A model generated the notes under the pieces. It made no database searches and had not been told where the DNA came from. It saw nothing but the letters and a program-made list of their open reading frames with translations. From contig CANLTE010000004.1 in the NCBI GenBank assembly GCA_947493885.1, positions 1 through 64,000 on the forward strand: 64,000 bases of DNA, written 5' to 3'. The DNA comes from an uncultured Maribacter sp. Lineage in GTDB: Bacteria > Bacteroidota > Bacteroidia > Flavobacteriales > Flavobacteriaceae. Positions 1 through 8,273 of the stretch are shown one piece after another. A program made the position numbers and the translations under genes. Positions within the stretch are counted from its first letter, which is position 1. Each line of letters starts with the position of its first letter.

Positions 1-72
1 TAGATGTTAGATCTACCACTGGCGAAGAAGCAAATGTAGATGTTAGATCTACCACTGGCGAAGAAGCAAATG
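1..72. repeat. 36-bp perfect tandem repeat inside the partial CDS
   Basis: Bases 1-36 and 37-72 are identical (unit beginning TAGATGTTAGATCTACCACT). The period is a multiple of three and preserves the reading frame. More copies may lie upstream of the window. Confidence 0.85.
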
Positions 73-89
73 TAGATAATAGAAATTAA
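1..89 (+). CDS. C-terminal end of a repeat-containing protein (partial)
   Basis: Only the last 29 codons are in the window, in the frame starting at base 3 and ending in TAA at 87-89. They encode two nearly complete copies of a 12-residue unit, VDVRSTTGEEAN, followed by VDNRN. The two copies are identical at the DNA level (36-bp period), so the repeat is young or kept homogeneous. No family can be named from this fragment. A strong hairpin with a T-tract follows 23 bases downstream, consistent with this being the real gene end. The protein itself lies upstream of the window. Confidence 0.6.
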   Translation, partial: DVRSTTGEEANVDVRSTTGEEANVDNRN

Positions 90-112
90 TAATAAAATAT
101 TATTAGAATCTC

Positions 113-148
113 AAAAAAGCTTTAAATAAATGTTTAAAGCTTTTTTTT
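113..148 (+). terminator. Hairpin with T-tract before the first kinase gene
   Basis: A 14-bp perfect stem (AAAAAAGCTTTAAA at 113-126 against TTTAAAGCTTTTTT at 133-146) with a 6-base loop runs into a T-tract. It can terminate the upstream repeat-protein gene. Because a related hairpin also precedes kinase 2, it may be part of the duplicated kinase leader. Confidence 0.7.
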
Positions 149-156
149 ATACCTTG
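148..156 (+). promoter_or_regulatory. TATACCTTG box, kinase 1 leader
   Basis: The sequence TTTTTTATACCTTG lies directly after the hairpin T-tract and 28 bases before the ATG at 185. The same 14-mer precedes all three kinase genes. It resembles, but does not exactly match, the Bacteroidetes -7 element TAnnTTTG, so a promoter role is an inference. Confidence 0.4.
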
Positions 157-184: not shown

Positions 185-2290
185 ATGTCTTACAAAAAAA
201 TACTGATTTTCAGCCTTATAAACGTATTTCTATTTGGTTGCTCAACCAAAATAGAAGAAAAAACTACTCCTCAAAAAAAATCAAAAGAGTTGGATAGTAT
301 TGCTTTATGGCTAGAAAAAGGTAGAAATAAAAAAAATAATGAGGATGAAAGATTTCATTATCTAAAAAAGGCACAAACAACCATAAAAAACATCAATGAT
401 GACTCTTTGAGAGCAAGACAATTGTCTAAACTATCACTTGCTTACCTAAAATTAGAAAAAAATGAAACTTTTAGAAAAGTAAACCATGAAACCATACAAT
501 TAGCAAAAAAAATAGGAGATTCTGTAACTCAAGCAGAATCTTATTGGGATTTAGCTGGGTTTTATAAAAATATAGTTATGGCTCCTGATAGCTCTTATTT
601 TTATTATTCTGAAGCTCAAAAGTTGTATAGAGGGTTGGGTAACCAGAAACTTGCTGGTAACATGTTATATAATATGGCTGTTGTTCAAGCAGACACCAGA
701 GATTATACTGGTAGTGAAATTAATACTATTAAGGCTTTAGAAATATTAAAACCCTTAGGAGACAACCTTCGCATATATAGATGTTACAATATGTTAGGCA
801 TCAACTCTAAATACCTTAAGGCATATGACCGTGGTATTGAATTTTATAACAAAGCTTTAGAATATGCAATCAAATTAGAAAATAGCGAGGAACAAAAAAT
901 TGGATTATTAAATAATATAGGTTCCTTATATTTAGGCAAAAATAATTACACTAAAGCTGCCGAGTATTTTGACAAAGTTGTTAGTAACAATAATTATAGA
1001 AAAAAGAAGCCCGATACTTATTCAAAATCACTGAACCAATTGGGATATTGTAAACTAAAACTAGGGCAACATGACAATCTACCTTGGTTATTTTTGGAAG
1101 CAGAAAGAATCTTAGACAGCGTTCAAGAACTTCATGGATTATCTGGTACACTAAAAAATTTGGGAGAATTTTATTTTACGGTAGAAAACGATACTTCAAA
1201 ATCAATAGCATATGGCAAAAAAGCTTTCAATCTCGCCAGAGTAAGCAAAAATAATGAAGGCTTATTAGATGGTTTAGAATTTCTAACTCGTGTAGACACA
1301 AAAAATGCTGCCAAACACGCAGAAGCTTACATTCAATTAAACGACAGTTTAGTAGATGCAGAACGCGCTGCTCGTGATAAATTTGCTCGTATCCGTTTTG
1401 AAACGGATGAATTTATTGCAGAAAACGAAACTTTAGAAAAACAAAAACAACTGTGGACAGGCATTGCTATTGGACTATTACTTTTAGCAGGAGCTTTATT
1501 TATAATTATTGACCAGAGGGTTAAAAATCAGCGTCTTAAATTTCAACAAGAACAACAAGCTAGTAACCAAGAAATATTTAATCTCATGCTTTCTCAAAAA
1601 CAAAAAGTGCAAGAAGGAAAGCAAATGGAACAAAAACGAATTTCGGAAGAGTTACATGATGGTGTTCTTGGTAAAATGCTTGGTGCCCGAATGGTACTTA
1701 CTGGTTTAAATAAACGCAGTGGCGACGAGGTTATTCAAGAAAGAGCTCATGCAATAGCTACTCTAAAAGATATCGAAGGTGAAGTACGCTCTATTTCCCA
1801 TGAACTGAGTCACAATGCGTACCAAAAAATTCACAACTTTATCAATTCCATTGAAGATTTGCTAAATGGTATTCAAAAAAGTTCGGGTATTAATTACGAT
1901 TTTAGTTACGACCATGATATTGAGTGGGATGAACTTAGCGGTGATATTAAAATTAACACCTATAGAATGATTCAGGAATGTATGCAAAACTCCCGGAAGC
2001 ATGCAGAGTGTACTGAGGTTTTTGTAAATTTTGATATTTACGATAGTAATTTTGTAATTGCCATGGGTGATAACGGCAAAGGCTTTAAACAAGATAAAGA
2101 AAGAAAAGGTATTGGAATGCGTAACCTCCAATCAAGAATCAAAAAGCTAGATGGTCAATTGGATATTGAATCTACTCTAGGTAAAGGAACAAAAATAACA
2201 TTGACTGTTCCAATCCCTGAGAAAGAAGAGTCAGAAGAAGAAAATCAACCAATTGCGGAGCATAGTGAAATTAATCAACCGCAAACATAA
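185..2290 (+). CDS. TPR-domain sensor histidine kinase (paralogue 1 of 3)
   Basis: This is a 701-residue sensor kinase. A lipoprotein-like signal ends at Cys19 (LFGC). A helical, TPR-rich sensor region follows (about 60-390), then one membrane span near 422-443 (TGIAIGLLLLAGALF), a short coiled coil, a HisKA_3 dimerisation domain with the phospho-acceptor His491 (EELHDGVLGKML), and an HATPase_c domain with NSRKHAE, GDNGKGF and GIGMRNLQ motifs. The TPR part would face the periplasm and the kinase part the cytoplasm. HisKA_3 kinases normally pair with LuxR/NarL-type regulators, and one is encoded at the end of this cluster. If Cys19 is lipidated, the protein would be anchored at both ends. The C-terminal tail is acidic and variable. 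The ligand is unknown. Confidence 0.9.
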   Translation: MSYKKILIFSLINVFLFGCSTKIEEKTTPQKKSKELDSIALWLEKGRNKKNNEDERFHYLKKAQTTIKNINDDSLRARQLSKLSLAYLKLEKNETFRKVNHETIQLAKKIGDSVTQAESYWDLAGFYKNIVMAPDSSYFYYSEAQKLYRGLGNQKLAGNMLYNMAVVQADTRDYTGSEINTIKALEILKPLGDNLRIYRCYNMLGINSKYLKAYDRGIEFYNKALEYAIKLENSEEQKIGLLNNIGSLYLGKNNYTKAAEYFDKVVSNNNYRKKKPDTYSKSLNQLGYCKLKLGQHDNLPWLFLEAERILDSVQELHGLSGTLKNLGEFYFTVENDTSKSIAYGKKAFNLARVSKNNEGLLDGLEFLTRVDTKNAAKHAEAYIQLNDSLVDAERAARDKFARIRFETDEFIAENETLEKQKQLWTGIAIGLLLLAGALFIIIDQRVKNQRLKFQQEQQASNQEIFNLMLSQKQKVQEGKQMEQKRISEELHDGVLGKMLGARMVLTGLNKRSGDEVIQERAHAIATLKDIEGEVRSISHELSHNAYQKIHNFINSIEDLLNGIQKSSGINYDFSYDHDIEWDELSGDIKINTYRMIQECMQNSRKHAECTEVFVNFDIYDSNFVIAMGDNGKGFKQDKERKGIGMRNLQSRIKKLDGQLDIESTLGKGTKITLTVPIPEKEESEEENQPIAEHSEINQPQT

Positions 2291-2324
2291 TCTTCATATT
2301 CTTTTGAAGTTCAAAAAAATATAG

Positions 2325-2359
2325 AAAAGCTTTACTCTAAATTGTTTAAGGCTTTTTTT
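2325..2359 (+). terminator. Hairpin with T-tract between kinases 1 and 2
   Basis: A 10-bp stem (AAAAGCTTTA / TTTAAGGCTTTT, one G-U pair) is followed by seven T. It has the same AAAAGCTTTA core and T-tract as the hairpin at 113-148, so it is both a likely terminator for kinase 1 and a repeated leader element of kinase 2. Confidence 0.6.
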
Positions 2360-2367
2360 ATACCTTG
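2359..2367 (+). promoter_or_regulatory. TATACCTTG box, kinase 2 leader
   Basis: Second copy of the TTTTTTATACCTTG element, 18 bases before the ATG at 2386. Its conservation between paralogues whose flanking bases have diverged argues for function. A promoter (-7-like) role is inferred. Confidence 0.4.
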
Positions 2368-2385
2368 TCGGGCACTAAGTTTTAG

Positions 2386-4473
2386 ATGTACCACAAAAAA
2401 CCACTGATAACCACATTTATAATATTACTTCTATTTAGCTGTTCCACTAAATCTGAAGTAAAAACAAGTACCTCAGAATCTACCGAAACCGACAGTATAA
2501 GGAAATGGATTAAAAATGGTAGAAACAAAGAAAATACCAACCAAAAAAGGTTGTTTTATATTAAAAAAGCGCAAACAACTATTCGCAATATTGACAATGA
2601 CTCTCTAAAAGCCAGACTACTATCTAAACTCTCATTGGCTTATCTAAGACTAAAAAAAAACAATAGGTTTCAAGAAGTAAACAAAGCAACTATTTTGCTT
2701 TCCAAAAAACTAGGAGATTCCCTAACTTTAGCGGAATCTTATTGGGATTTAGGAGAATTCCATACCAGGGCAGATAGTGCTTACTATTACTATTCGAAGG
2801 CTCATAAATTGTATCATAATCTTGATAAAAAAATTACAGCTGCTCGCATGCTTTACAATATGGCTGTGGTTCAAGGAAATATGAAAGACTATACAGGTAG
2901 TGAAATTAACACTATACAAGCGCTGGAGTTGCTAAAAAACTCTGACAATTATAAACGTCTTTATAATTGTTATAACCAATTAGGAATAACATCCAACAAT
3001 CTTAATGCTTACGACAAAGCGATATCTAATTACAACAAAGCCTTAGGGTATGCCATGAAGTTAGATAACCATAAAACCTTAAAACTAAGTCTTATTAATA
3101 ATATTGGTTTTGTTTATTTAAGTAGAAAAGATTACGTCAACGCTGCTATTAATTTCAGGCAAGTTGTAAAGAATGACAGTGTTAAATTCAAAGACCCCAA
3201 GCTTTATGGAAAAGCTCTTAACAACTTAGCTTATTGCTATCTTAAACTAAACAAACAAGATGACATTCCTGAACTATTCTTTAAGGCCGAAAAAATATTG
3301 GATACAGTTAATGATTTTCAAGGTTTAGCGCTAACTATAAGGAATATTGCAGAATATTATGCCACAAAAAAAGATACTTTAAAATCTATATTATATATAG
3401 ATAAAAGTTATATCATTTCTAAAGCAAGTGCTGATAATGAAGGTCAATTAAATGCTTTAAAGTTATTAGCCAATGTGGATACTAAAAACTCCGCACGATA
3501 CGCTAAAAGTTACATAAAACTGAAAGATAGTTTGATACAAGAAGAACGTTCAGCTCGTGATAAATTTGCACGTATTCGTTTTGAAACCAATGAATTTATT
3601 GCTGAAAACGAAACTTTGGCAAAACAAAAACAGTTATGGACAGGTATTGCCATTGGACTATTACTTTTAGCTATTGCTATATTTGTTATTGTCAACCAAA
3701 GAGCCAAAAACCAGCGCCTTATATTTCAACAAAAACAACAGACTAACAACCAGGAAATATTTAACCTGATGCTTTCTCAGAAACAGAAAATGCAAGAAGG
3801 AAAGCAAATAGAACAAAAACGAATTTCAGAAGAATTACATGATGGTGTTCTTGGTAAAATGCTTGGCATAAGAATGTTACTTACAGGTTTAAATAAAAGA
3901 ACAGGTGACGATGTCATAAAAGAAAGAACAAAAGCCATCTCTGCACTTAGAGATATTGAAATTGAGGTGCGTTCCATTTCTCACGAGCTTAATGATAATG
4001 CATATCAGAAAATAAACGACTTTATTAATGCCATTGAATACTTGCTTATGGGCTTTCAAAAAAGTTCGGGCATCAATTACAACTTTAGCTACGACCAAGA
4101 TATTGAGTGGGATGAACTTAGCGGTGATATTAAAATTAACACCTATAGAATGATTCAGGAATGTATGCAAAACTCCTGGAAGCATGCAGAGTGCACTGAA
4201 GTTTTTGCAAATTTTGATATTTATGATAGTAATTTTGTAATTGCCATAGGAGATAACGGTAAAGGCTTTAAACAAGATAAAGAAAGAAAAGGTATTGGAA
4301 TGCGTAACCTCCAATCTAGAATCAAAAAGCTAGATGGACAATTAGATATTATATCTGCTCTAGGTAAAGGAACAAAAATAACCCTGACTATTCCACTTTC
4401 TATTTTGAACAAACAAAAAATAGAACATAACCCACACTTAAAAATCAGGAAAAACTATCCAATACAAACATAA
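2386..4473 (+). CDS. TPR-domain sensor histidine kinase (paralogue 2 of 3)
   Basis: This 695-residue paralogue of the 185-2290 kinase has the same layout: lipoprotein-like signal with Cys19 (LLFSC), TPR-type sensor region, one membrane span (TGIAIGLLLLAIAIF), HisKA_3 domain with His485, and HATPase_c domain. The sensor half is only moderately similar to paralogue 1. The part from RDKFARIRFET onward is nearly the same, with long DNA-identical stretches around 4097-4175 and 4270-4310. One distinctive change is NSWKHAE where both paralogues have NSRKHAE, from a single C-to-T change in the ATP-lid region. The catalytic motifs GDNGKGF and GIGMRNL are intact, so it should be active. It is separated from kinase 1 by a terminator-like hairpin, so it probably has its own transcript. 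Confidence 0.9.
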   Translation: MYHKKPLITTFIILLLFSCSTKSEVKTSTSESTETDSIRKWIKNGRNKENTNQKRLFYIKKAQTTIRNIDNDSLKARLLSKLSLAYLRLKKNNRFQEVNKATILLSKKLGDSLTLAESYWDLGEFHTRADSAYYYYSKAHKLYHNLDKKITAARMLYNMAVVQGNMKDYTGSEINTIQALELLKNSDNYKRLYNCYNQLGITSNNLNAYDKAISNYNKALGYAMKLDNHKTLKLSLINNIGFVYLSRKDYVNAAINFRQVVKNDSVKFKDPKLYGKALNNLAYCYLKLNKQDDIPELFFKAEKILDTVNDFQGLALTIRNIAEYYATKKDTLKSILYIDKSYIISKASADNEGQLNALKLLANVDTKNSARYAKSYIKLKDSLIQEERSARDKFARIRFETNEFIAENETLAKQKQLWTGIAIGLLLLAIAIFVIVNQRAKNQRLIFQQKQQTNNQEIFNLMLSQKQKMQEGKQIEQKRISEELHDGVLGKMLGIRMLLTGLNKRTGDDVIKERTKAISALRDIEIEVRSISHELNDNAYQKINDFINAIEYLLMGFQKSSGINYNFSYDQDIEWDELSGDIKINTYRMIQECMQNSWKHAECTEVFANFDIYDSNFVIAIGDNGKGFKQDKERKGIGMRNLQSRIKKLDGQLDIISALGKGTKITLTIPLSILNKQKIEHNPHLKIRKNYPIQT

Positions 4474-4588
4474 AAATAATAGCTCCTGTAAACACAAAGT
4501 AAATATTAATCTTATAAGCTCAACAATGTCCTTGTACGAAGTAAATGGGTCAATAGTAAGAATTTAAATACCGAAAAGCATTTAAAAG

Positions 4589-4607
4589 GTTTAAATAGAC
4601 TTTAAAC
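4589..4607 (+). promoter_or_regulatory. Hairpin in the kinase 3 leader
   Basis: GTTTAAA (4589-4595) and TTTAAAC (4601-4607) form a 7-bp stem upstream of the third TATACCTTG box. It sits where kinases 1 and 2 have their hairpins, though the sequence has drifted and the T-tract is separated from it. The rest of the 181-base gap shows no gene. Confidence 0.4.
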
Positions 4608-4628
4608 AATTTTGTTTATATCATTTTT

Positions 4629-4637
4629 TATACCTTG
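4629..4637 (+). promoter_or_regulatory. TATACCTTG box, kinase 3 leader
   Basis: Third copy of TTTTTTATACCTTG, 17 bases before the ATG at 4655, matching the spacing in front of kinase 2. Confidence 0.4.
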
Positions 4638-4654
4638 CTCTGTACTACTTTCAT

Positions 4655-6754
4655 ATGCTTAATAAAAAAATATTATTAATAAGCTTCATAAGTTTAACAT
4701 TATGTAGCTACACAACAACGTTAAGAGGGCAAGACCTTCAAAAAACTCCTAGGATAAGTGACAGTATAACGAGTTGGATTTCTGAAGGAAGAAATGTAAA
4801 CCATAGTCTCGAAAACAGAGATTTGTTTCTAAAAAAAACCTCCGATGCTATAAAAAAAGTAAAAAACGACTCTTTAAAAACGAAATACTTATCCAAACTT
4901 TCTTTAGCATATTTTAAACTAAAAAACTACAAGAATTTTAAGAAGATAAATAAGGAAACCCTTCTCCTATCAATAAAAATTGGAGATTCAGTAGCCCAAG
5001 CAGAATCTTATTGGGATATGGCATCCTATTATGAAAAGGTTAATCGTACTCCAGATAGTGCTTACTATTACTATTCTGAAGCTCATAAATTGTATGACAA
5101 CCTAAAGAAAATAAGCTTTTCTGCTCGAATGATCTATAATATGGCTAATGTTCAGGCAGATACCCGAGACTATACCGGAAGCGAAATAAATGCCATTAAA
5201 GCTCTTGAGATACAAAAAACACTTAAAGACGACAAACGTATTTATATGTGTTACAATCTTCTAGGAATTAACGCTAGGAGACTTAAAGCATATGACAGGG
5301 CCATTGAGTATTACAATATTGCCCTTAAATATGCCGAAAAACTTGATGATTTTGAAATTGAAAAAAACATCATTTTAAACAACATAGGCTATGCTTATTT
5401 TGCTAAGAAAGATTATGTAACAGCAAGCAGATATTTTAAATTAATTTCTGAAAATAAAAATCTAATAAATATTGACCCAGTAGGCTATTCAAGAGCCTTA
5501 AACAACTTAGGAGAAACGTTTTTAAAGCAAAAAAAAATGGATAGTTTGCCTAAGTTATTTTTTAATGCAAAGAACATCTTAATTAATGCACAAGCGGATT
5601 ATGAGTTGGGTATTGTTTTCCCCAATATTGCTGAGTATTATTTAACTCAAAAAGATACTATTAAAGCCTTGCATTATGCTCAAAAAACATACAATTTATC
5701 CAAAATAAATGGTGAAATCGATGGCATTTTAACCGCATTAAAAATTCTGACGCATATTGATTCAAAAAATGCAACCCAACATGTCGCAAACTACATTCGT
5801 TTAAGTGATAGTCTACAATTGGCAGAAAGAAAATCCAGAAACAAATTTGCTCGTATTAGATTTGAGACTGATGAATTTATTGCAGAAAACCAGACGTTAG
5901 AAAAACAAAAACAATTGTGGATAGGTATTGCCGTTAGTCTTTTACTATTAGCTATAGCTTTATTCATTATTATATACCAAAGAGTAAAAAACCAAAAACT
6001 TAAATTTCTTCAAAAACAACAAGTCAGTAATCAGGAAATATTTAATCTCATGCTTTCCCAGAGGAAAAAAATTCAAGAAGGTAGGCAAATTGCACAAAAA
6101 AGAATTTCAGAAGAATTACATGACGGAGTTCTAGGTAAAATGCTTGGCGCTAGAATGTTACTTACTGGGTTAAATAAAAGAAATGGTGAAACCGTTATTA
6201 AAGAGCGTGCTAAAGCAATTTCGGCACTTAGAGACATAGAAAGCGAAGTACGATTAATATCACATGAACTTAATTATAACTCGTATCAAAAGATTAACAA
6301 CTTCGTTGTTTCCATAGAGGAGTTATTAATAGGACTCAAAAAAAACTCAGGAATTGATTATTATTTTAGTTATAATCAAGACATTGAATGGGATGAATTG
6401 AGCGGAGATATCAAAATTAATACCTATAGAATGATTCAAGAGGGTATACAAAACTCACGAAAACATGCAGAATGCACTGAGGTTTTTGTAAACTTTAACA
6501 TATATAATAAAAAATTTGTAATTGCCATGGGAGATAATGGTAAAGGTTTTAAATTTGATAAAGAAAGAAAAGGTATTGGAATGCGAAACCTCCAATCTCG
6601 AATTAAAAAACTTAATGGTCTTCTTGAAATTGAATCTGAGTTGGGCAAGGGAACAGTGATAACACTAACAATTCCTATTCCCGATAATAAAGAAAAGTCA
6701 AGAAAAAGCCATTTGGTTTCTGAACAAAACAAAATTTATCAAACACAAGCTTAA
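4655..6754 (+). CDS. TPR-domain sensor histidine kinase (paralogue 3 of 3)
   Basis: This 699-residue third paralogue has a hydrophobic N-terminus, TPR-type sensor region, one membrane span (GIAVSLLLLAIALF), HisKA_3 with His489 (EELHDGVLGKML) and HATPase_c with GDNGKGF and GIGMRNL. Unlike the other two it lacks a convincing lipobox: Cys17 is preceded by Leu (LTLC). The N-terminus is therefore more likely cleaved by signal peptidase I or left as an anchor. It is the most divergent copy, including MIQEGIQNS where the others have MIQECMQNS. It ends 14 bases before the response regulator gene, with no hairpin between, so these two are very likely co-transcribed and this is the most probable cognate kinase. 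Confidence 0.9.
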   Translation: MLNKKILLISFISLTLCSYTTTLRGQDLQKTPRISDSITSWISEGRNVNHSLENRDLFLKKTSDAIKKVKNDSLKTKYLSKLSLAYFKLKNYKNFKKINKETLLLSIKIGDSVAQAESYWDMASYYEKVNRTPDSAYYYYSEAHKLYDNLKKISFSARMIYNMANVQADTRDYTGSEINAIKALEIQKTLKDDKRIYMCYNLLGINARRLKAYDRAIEYYNIALKYAEKLDDFEIEKNIILNNIGYAYFAKKDYVTASRYFKLISENKNLINIDPVGYSRALNNLGETFLKQKKMDSLPKLFFNAKNILINAQADYELGIVFPNIAEYYLTQKDTIKALHYAQKTYNLSKINGEIDGILTALKILTHIDSKNATQHVANYIRLSDSLQLAERKSRNKFARIRFETDEFIAENQTLEKQKQLWIGIAVSLLLLAIALFIIIYQRVKNQKLKFLQKQQVSNQEIFNLMLSQRKKIQEGRQIAQKRISEELHDGVLGKMLGARMLLTGLNKRNGETVIKERAKAISALRDIESEVRLISHELNYNSYQKINNFVVSIEELLIGLKKNSGIDYYFSYNQDIEWDELSGDIKINTYRMIQEGIQNSRKHAECTEVFVNFNIYNKKFVIAMGDNGKGFKFDKERKGIGMRNLQSRIKKLNGLLEIESELGKGTVITLTIPIPDNKEKSRKSHLVSEQNKIYQTQA

Positions 6755-6768
6755 AAACAATCACACTA

Positions 6769-7437
6769 ATGGATGTAATACGTATACTAGCCGTTGATGA
6801 CCATGAAATGACAACTATGGGATATAAATATATTCTAGAGGGGTCAGAATTTGAAGATTTTGAAGTCACCGTAGATATTGGAAAAGGGTTTGAACATGGT
6901 AAAGAAAAAATTGAATTTTCTGCACGCTCTTTAAAATACGATATTATATTGTTAGACATACAAATGTTTCCAGTAGATTCAGGAGACCCAAGAAGTGGTG
7001 AAGATTTGGGTAAACTAGCAAGGGAAATTGTTCCGGAATCTAAAGTTGTATTCATGTCTTCTTTTAATGATCAATATAGAATTAATAGCATATATAAGTC
7101 AGTTGACCCCGATGGTTATATGGTTAAAGCTGAAATTGATGAACAATCATTAAAAGCAATGGTAAAAACGGTGATTAAAAAGCCTCCATATTATACCGCT
7201 GGTGCCTTAGCAGCCATAAGGAAAAGAGTAGCTAATGATTTAATTATCGATGAGCAAGATAAAAAAATACTATATCACCTATCCAGAGGCACAAGAACTA
7301 AAGATATTGCTCCTCTAATTGCTTCTGCAAACACAACGGTGGAAACTAGAAAAAGGCATTTAAAAGTACTTTTTGGTATCGAAAACGGTAATGATTTTGC
7401 TTTAATCGAAGAAGCTAAAAAACGAGGATTTATTTAA
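6769..7437 (+). CDS. LuxR/NarL-type response regulator
   Basis: This is a 222-residue regulator. The receiver domain (1 to about 135) has the acidic pair Asp10/Asp11, the phospho-acceptor Asp63 (ILLDIQM), a Ser at the switch position (FMSSFND) and the conserved Lys (YMVKAE). A GerE-type helix-turn-helix follows (about 160-215: DKKILYHLSRGTRTKDIA ... VETRKRHLKVLF). The loop after Asp63 (FPVDSGDPRSGEDLG) is longer than the usual DxxMPxMDG loop, so the receiver is slightly atypical. It is the only regulator gene beside three HisKA_3 kinases, which suggests that all three inputs may converge on it. That is inference from gene context. Confidence 0.9.
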   Translation: MDVIRILAVDDHEMTTMGYKYILEGSEFEDFEVTVDIGKGFEHGKEKIEFSARSLKYDIILLDIQMFPVDSGDPRSGEDLGKLAREIVPESKVVFMSSFNDQYRINSIYKSVDPDGYMVKAEIDEQSLKAMVKTVIKKPPYYTAGALAAIRKRVANDLIIDEQDKKILYHLSRGTRTKDIAPLIASANTTVETRKRHLKVLFGIENGNDFALIEEAKKRGFI

Positions 7438-7520
7438 CAGCCCTTACGATATTCTTAATTTTCACAACAAAAAAGAAGGGTTTTTATTACGTTTTAACCA
7501 AAAAAAGTGAAAAAAAAGCA

Positions 7521-7548
7521 AAAACCTCCGAATTTCGGAGGTTTTTTT
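7521..7548 (+). terminator. Rho-independent terminator after the response regulator
   Basis: Perfect stem AAAACCTCCG / CGGAGGTTTT with a 4-base loop (AATT) followed by a T-run. The A-run on the other side means it could work in both directions. Confidence 0.85.
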
Positions 7549-7613: not shown

Positions 7614-8273
7614 ATGTTTACAGATTTCAATAGTTTTAATAACAAAAAAGGAAAAGTATCCGAAAAAAATTACACCGTTTATGGCTTAGATATTCTTACC
7701 AAAAATTTGGAGAAAAATTTCTTTGCTAATGTAACAGTTCAAAGTTCTCCTGTCAGTAGTTCTTCTATTGATTTGGTTATAAACTTAGACTGTAATTTTA
7801 CTTTGGAAGAAACCATAGCTAACCTAAATAATAATATTTGGGGAAATTTTGTGCAAAGGAAAAGCTCTTTATGTAATAGCTTTAATTTAATTCTTGAAAA
7901 TAATGCTATTGATATAGACATTGAGGAGTTTTCTATATTCCTGAAAGACACCTCAATTATTATTAAAAAAATATACGATAAAAGTATTCCAGAACAATTA
8001 GAAGACATTTTAAATACACTAAGCAGACATCATTTGTTTTTCACAAAAGGAGGTACAGAAGCTCCATACGAGATATACATTCCTGTTTTTGAAGAAGAAA
8101 TTTTTGTGGAGAACCAATTAATAGAGCAAAAAGAAACCCAAAATTTCGATGCAAAAAATTACAACGAATTTTGGGGTATTTATTTTGAATCTGAAGAAGA
8201 CGCCTTAATATATGATTTAAAACATGCTAACTGTATTCCTGCAGATTTAAATCTTCAAATGATAAATCAATAG
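7614..8273 (+). CDS. Conserved hypothetical protein, no family recognised
   Basis: This is a 219-residue soluble protein without signal peptide or membrane segment. It is acidic overall, with a Glu-rich central part (FEEEIFVENQLIEQ). I do not recognise a domain or catalytic motif. It has its own terminator-isolated promoter and converges on glyA through a shared 14-bp hairpin, so it looks like a single-gene transcript. The reading frame is long and clean and starts at a normal distance behind a TAnnTTTG box, so it is a real gene. The 60-residue track ORF at 7507-7689 overlapping its start spans a terminator and is not real. Confidence 0.75.
   Translation: MFTDFNSFNNKKGKVSEKNYTVYGLDILTKNLEKNFFANVTVQSSPVSSSSIDLVINLDCNFTLEETIANLNNNIWGNFVQRKSSLCNSFNLILENNAIDIDIEEFSIFLKDTSIIIKKIYDKSIPEQLEDILNTLSRHHLFFTKGGTEAPYEIYIPVFEEEIFVENQLIEQKETQNFDAKNYNEFWGIYFESEEDALIYDLKHANCIPADLNLQMINQ

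Follow-up and report, generated by a model that had tools for sequence, protein, structure and literature searches.

What do three tandem sensor kinases sense when they stand in front of a single response regulator, and why are there three of them? The question is raised by a stretch of 64,000 nucleotides (hereafter the window) which forms the start of contig C4 in the genome of an uncultured Maribacter sp. (G000). The original prediction described here three TPR-HisKA_3 kinases (K1, K2 and K3), arranged head to tail and followed by one response regulator (RR), and all four ORFs are indeed open and intact (Table 1). In Pfam searches, each kinase matches TPR_12, HisKA_3 and HATPase_c and the RR matches the receiver family; for HisKA_3 the scores are low, at 21.6-26.1 bits where the cut-off is 24 bits. 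All three kinases retain intact H, N and G boxes, the receiver Asp of the RR is conserved in 80 of 80 cases, and 15 bp separate K3 from the RR gene. The locus thus has the parts of a HisKA_3/NarL-type two-component system: a HisKA_3 DHp domain with H-D/E box, HATPase_c, and an RR that joins a receiver to an HTH output. A three-kinase array is also present in a sister genome (G001, uncultured Maribacter 515-3Z, locus L059), where it is located inside a contig. The sister K1 is 86% identical to that of the window, the other three products 96-100% (Table 1). Since the same three kinases occur there within a contig, the array is evidently real and complete.

Table 1. Positions of features in the first part of the window
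Feature	Position	Strand	Basis or remark
3' end of exported peptide precursor gene, ending in ...DVRSTTGEEANVDVRSTTGEEANVDNRN and stop, 12-aa (36-bp) tandem repeats	3..89	+	sister orthologue complete
Terminator-like hairpin and T-run between peptide gene and K1	113..146	+	z = -5.5; conserved across loci
TTTTTTATACCTTG, promoter-like element of K1, TANNTTTG-type -7 box suspected	143..156	+	exact match
K1, TPR-HisKA_3 sensor kinase, lipoprotein-like signal, copy adjoining peptide gene	185..2290	+	701 aa
K1 sensor cassette, aa 45-395, ~9 TPR units, replaced relative to sister species	317..1369	+	pS, AF2
K1 side of K1-K2 gene-conversion tract, ATPase domain aa ~565-640	1877..2104	+	pS
TTTTTTATACCTTG element of K2, hairpin before it at 2323-2358	2354..2367	+	exact match
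K2, TPR-HisKA_3 sensor kinase, 96% identity to sister K2	2386..4473	+	695 aa
K2 side of K1-K2 gene-conversion tract	4060..4287	+	pS
TTTTTTATACCTTG element of K3	4624..4637	+	exact match
K3, TPR-HisKA_3 sensor kinase, 97% identity to sister K3	4655..6754	+	699 aa
Single RR, receiver and NarL/LuxR-like output, 100% identity in sister species	6769..7437	+	
Intrinsic terminator after RR gene	7520..7546	+	
P7614, conserved neighbour ORF between RR and glyA	7614..8273	+	in every complete locus

The prediction suggested that the three sensors converge on the one RR. No separate cognate regulators for K1 and K2 were found elsewhere in the genome, where the next best RR is 22% identical; the DHp H-box region is almost identical across K1-K3; and in 76 of 79 related contigs the RR partners a single kinase of ancestral type. 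For these reasons, convergence on the single RR is, judged from the sequences, the most likely wiring. Other kinases of the HisKA_3 family lie only on contigs C5 and C6.

The array itself does not constitute a conserved system. The 79 related loci come from named genomes of Maribacter, Zobellia, Arenibacter, Pricia and others, some of them cut by contig ends, and all represent one syntenic locus with the usual order 502-aa ORF, LytTR ORF, kinase, RR, P7614, glyA. The cluster recurs in related genomes, but usually with one kinase for its regulator; two kinases occur in L064 and L081 and three in L059, so that a three-kinase system is confined to G000 and G001. In trees of the sensor and of the kinase the duplications fall into three different lineages, indicating that the triplication is a local event and that a locus with one kinase underwent tandem duplication three times independently. 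In the second kinase of L081 (L081:12115-14193, genome G002), the H-box reads HY instead of HD and the G3 box is altered; it is probably a decaying or modulatory copy. Having lost the acid adjoining the phospho-His, it illustrates that extra copies can decay, which K1-K3 have not done.

Comparison of the three copies bears on another part of the prediction, according to which the sensor halves have diverged and the kinase halves are nearly the same. Divergence of the sensors (47-53% identity) was borne out; the similarity of the kinase halves was overstated, DHp domains being 75-81% and ATPase domains 76-86% identical. Near-identity is confined to a K1-K2 ATPase segment (aa ~565-640), whose pS is 0.17 here and 0.05 in the sister, against 0.6-0.9 outside the tract, a pattern that we attribute to gene conversion.

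The K1 sensor behaves differently. Relative to the sister species its synonymous sites are saturated (pS 0.7-0.9), compared with ~0.2 in the K1 signal peptide, ~0.1 in the kinase half and ~0.08 in the sensors of K2 and K3. In two further comparisons, L132/L133 and L123/L137, the edge of the sensor cassette is sharp near aa 420 in the TM helix; in L132/L133 pS drops there from 0.5 to 0.05. The raised pS implies that sensor alleles have been imported by recombination, and the K1 sensor change is such a replacement and not fast substitution only. K2 and K3 were considered as donors and rejected, no low-pS tract being present between the K1 sensor and theirs.

A clue to what is sensed lies in a gene that the earlier reading missed because the window begins at a contig end. 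The window opens with the last 28 codons of an exported peptide precursor gene, the 5' part of which lies where contig C3 ends (L051); the sister orthologue is complete (L059:9610-9912). The assembly break (window 1-91 and the C3 end) coincides with the 36-bp coding repeat of this gene and is caused by it, and synteny suggests that C3 and C4 adjoin. The repeat in this genome is TTGEEANVDVRS; core peptides are exemplified by STTGEEANVDVR here and ATGGDKGSVADRD in the sister.

Wherever the LytTR-kinase interval is intact (76 of 76 loci), it holds a small exported peptide ORF of 45-230 aa immediately 5' of the kinase gene, separated from LytTR by ~144 nt and from the kinase by ~78 nt. Its product begins with a conserved signal sequence (MKKVASI.AV..) and ends in a hypervariable core with a near-invariant Arg. 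The core is a tandem repeat, such as SSTDGDDVQIDRRG, CDDCSHDKDEREAVA or DNAVATDGDSVPKERRDPPKATNDFQY, in about 19 loci including this one, L137 among them being unreliable as it contains masked sequence. A lipobox-like site is present in ~33 of 77 precursors; such a site would suit a protein held in the membrane no less than a free signal. Of 61 kinase gaps in the same loci, 60 hold a comparable small exported ORF; none of the 231 other intergenic gaps does when 15 mis-started kinases are treated as kinases. When a profile of the peptide was run over 61 genomes, one strong match (E<=3e-13) was obtained in each of the 12 that hold a close kinase and in no other, always adjoining the kinase. The locus thus contains an exported signal-like precursor next to its kinase, as peptide quorum sensing of the ComQXPA kind would require. 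The precursor has no fitting Pfam or NCBIfam family; the PG1828 lipoprotein model weakly matches the signal part only, and assignment to the NVEALA family, lacking Pfam or NCBIfam support and any supporting paper that we could find, was dismissed. The locus contains no dedicated exporter or protease.

We then compared how the parts of the locus vary together, using partial Mantel tests over 74 loci of marine flavobacteria (2000 permutations; RR, LytTR, glyA and kinase half controlled for). Peptide core and kinase sensor co-vary with r=0.28 and p=0.0005, the lowest value that so many permutations can give; the correlation is to be read with the caution that such tests are liberal and that linkage could inflate it, the two genes being 150-300 bp apart. 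The signal part of the peptide shows no significant relation to the sensor (r=0.02), nor does the core to the fast-evolving neighbour P7614 (r=-0.02); a weaker residual link joins the core to the RR (r=0.13). The segment physically in between core and sensor, the kinase signal peptide, reaches only r=0.06, evidence against a single shared tract. Among 33 close pairs that do not overlap, sensor and core distances are strongly correlated (Spearman 0.86), and the partial correlation within the same pairs remains high (r=0.79, p=2.6e-7) after controlling for neutral distance, kinase and P7614; the controls are not significant. Co-variation of signal and sensor, the mark of pherotypes in two-component systems for peptide quorum sensing, is accordingly present.

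The same is visible in DNA identity between the sister species. LytTR and the 5' half of the peptide gene are 95-100% identical, the peptide core ~70%; promoter and K1 signal (93%) form an island between the core and the K1 sensor (66-79%); from after the K1 sensor to the end of the RR, K2 and K3 included, identity is 90-100%, and in P7614 it is 87-94%. Peptide core and K1 sensor have been replaced between the two species, and K2, K3 and the RR are nearly unchanged.

Structure prediction gives the sensor a matching character. The AF2 model of K1 has ~9 TPR units at pLDDT >90, and the TPR domain is flanked by an N-terminal signal on one side and a single TM helix on the other. Top Foldseek matches are LGN TPR-peptide complexes, followed by Rap-phi3T pheromone receptors (E ~1e-8), so the modelled sensor looks like a peptide-binding TPR solenoid of LGN and Rap type. 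The fold of the kinase part matches VraS and DesK.

The joint change of peptide and kinase points to an unrecognised peptide signal with its receptor, and not just to a sensor array. We therefore favour, with a probability of about 0.6, a pherotype-like system of peptide signal, TPR kinase and NarL/LuxR-type regulator, in which K2 and K3 serve as extra receptors on the same RR. The small exported precursor, with its variable and often tandemly repeated C-terminal core, would be processed and released from the cell or the cell surface. The kinase encoded next door would recognise the peptide through its periplasmic TPR sensor and then phosphorylate the single NarL/LuxR-type regulator. Core and sensor cassette would evolve together, as pherotypes of Bacillus ComQXPA do. 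K1, which adjoins the peptide gene, would keep pace with the self peptide, and K2 and K3 may be additional, more constant receptors feeding the same regulator.

The co-variation could also arise if the small protein never left its own cell. As an accessory lipoprotein comparable to CpxP, it would stay in the envelope and modulate the kinase in cis, and the interface would co-evolve with no intercellular signalling. The lipobox-like sites, the position of the small precursor next to the kinase and the co-variation itself, which fits any direct contact, are all compatible with this. However, core repeat arrays with -AVA/-AIA/-KIA-like junctions arose many times and resemble a multi-copy peptide precursor, and such hypervariability is typical of recognition signals; we consider the cis-acting role unlikely.

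Two further explanations dispense with the contact between peptide and sensor and appear to us still less probable. One builds on the sensor array of the original prediction: each of K1-K3 would respond to a different, unrelated environmental cue, all three signalling to a single RR, and the peptide gene would be incidental. Three diverged sensors, near-identical H-box regions, one RR and no other related RR agree with it, but it accounts neither for peptide-sensor co-variation nor for a peptide gene in every one of the 76 loci with one kinase. The other is linked hypervariability: a recombination hotspot, or pressure from phages or predators, would diversify core and sensor alike. Sensor pS is indeed raised by imported alleles, and there is another divergent island upstream of LytTR. 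Yet the conserved stretch in between (promoter and kinase signal peptide) co-varies less than the core does (r=0.06 vs 0.28), and the peptide's own 5' half does not co-vary.

Peptide pheromones are well known in Gram-positives. The closest working model for the favoured peptide-receptor system is given by the pherotypes of Bacillus ComQXPA (PMC4408185), composed of the HisKA_3 kinase ComP, the NarL-type regulator ComA and the polymorphic pheromone ComX (PMC4408185, PMC4008528). In both cases a peptide gene adjoins a HisKA_3 kinase and a NarL/LuxR-type RR, and signal and sensor are hypervariable while the kinase half is conserved. In contrast to the polytopic membrane domain of ComP, the sensor here is a periplasmic TPR domain, the precursor is exported and often multi-copy, and the host is a Gram-negative member of Bacteroidota. 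Neither a ComQ isoprenyl transferase nor a ComP polytopic sensor is encoded in the locus, which is thus not ComQXPA proper.

RRNPP receptors (Rap, NprR, PlcR, Rgg, PrgX; PMC10075063) share with the locus a TPR solenoid, matched in the K1 model by Rap-phi3T, and an exported propeptide encoded next door. They differ in being cytoplasmic receptors of 250-500 aa that act directly on DNA or phosphatase targets, whereas K1-K3 are membrane histidine kinases of 695-701 aa with the TPR domain outside the cytoplasm. RRNPP surveys covered Firmicutes and viruses (PMC10075063). Within Bacteroidota, FimS-FimR of Porphyromonas gingivalis likewise combines a periplasmic TPR sensor kinase with a LuxR-type RR; according to PMC11053733, the input of FimS is unknown and its TPRs may bind peptides. 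The NCBIfam FimS model (NF053520) matches the sensor regions of K1-K3 at 28-50 bits, far from the family cut-off of 600.

Many-to-one networks, for example NarX/NarQ or KinA-E, also let several kinases serve one regulator. Unlike those, the kinases described here are tandem paralogues with homogenised ATPase segments beside a shared peptide gene. In the open-access papers searched we found no description of a peptide-TPR kinase system or another peptide-kinase signalling system in Bacteroidota. We see an even chance that the locus represents a widespread, undescribed form of Bacteroidota peptide signalling, in which exported, often multi-copy precursors are read by TPR histidine kinases that parallel RRNPP recognition outside the cytoplasm, sensors are swapped in a pherotype-like manner and, in this lineage, an array of three kinases on one regulator may read self and non-self peptides. 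If so, many TPR kinases with orphan inputs, perhaps FimS-like ones among them, would have an input that can be tested, and pherotypes would exist in flavobacteria associated with marine algae (Maribacter, Zobellia, Arenibacter). The triplicated array would exemplify in nature how a single regulator can listen through several receptors.

A simple sensor operon is ruled out as the whole story, since an identical TTTTTTATACCTTG promoter-like element precedes each kinase; exact matches in the 64 kb are found nowhere else. The element follows a hairpin whose strength falls from strong at K1 through moderate at K2 to weak at K3. The peptide gene is preceded by a conserved direct repeat with a 21-bp period (lag-21 z=5.3), a period typical of LytTR sites, and LytTR may control the peptide gene. 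The LytTR ORF (L059:8719-9462 and orthologues) encodes a pseudo-receiver: in all 75 of 75 loci its phospho-acceptor Asp has given way to Asn, His or Ser. The lipoprotein-like 502-aa ORF before it (L059:7056-8564; in G000 at the C3 end, L051) matches no Pfam family and is a further divergent island between the sister species (71-95% DNA identity). P7614, which evolves fast, has no known family and no significant fold match. A defence system was also considered and discarded, PADLOC giving no match except a generic TPR model.

Beyond this clade, distant TPR kinases (32-41% identical) of other Flavobacteriaceae mostly have an exported ORF of ~50-60 aa in the same place (for example L018, L019, L021, L024-L030, L161, L165, L166), as has the canonical kinase-RR pair of G090 (L169). 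Six or more show no detectable peptide ORF, and as the ORFs were scanned by simple rules, this wider spread is suggestive only. G090, another Flavobacteriaceae genome, also holds five tandem TPR kinases without an RR (L168:6561-16752), apart from which its kinase-RR pair is located; tandem arrays of TPR kinases thus recur.
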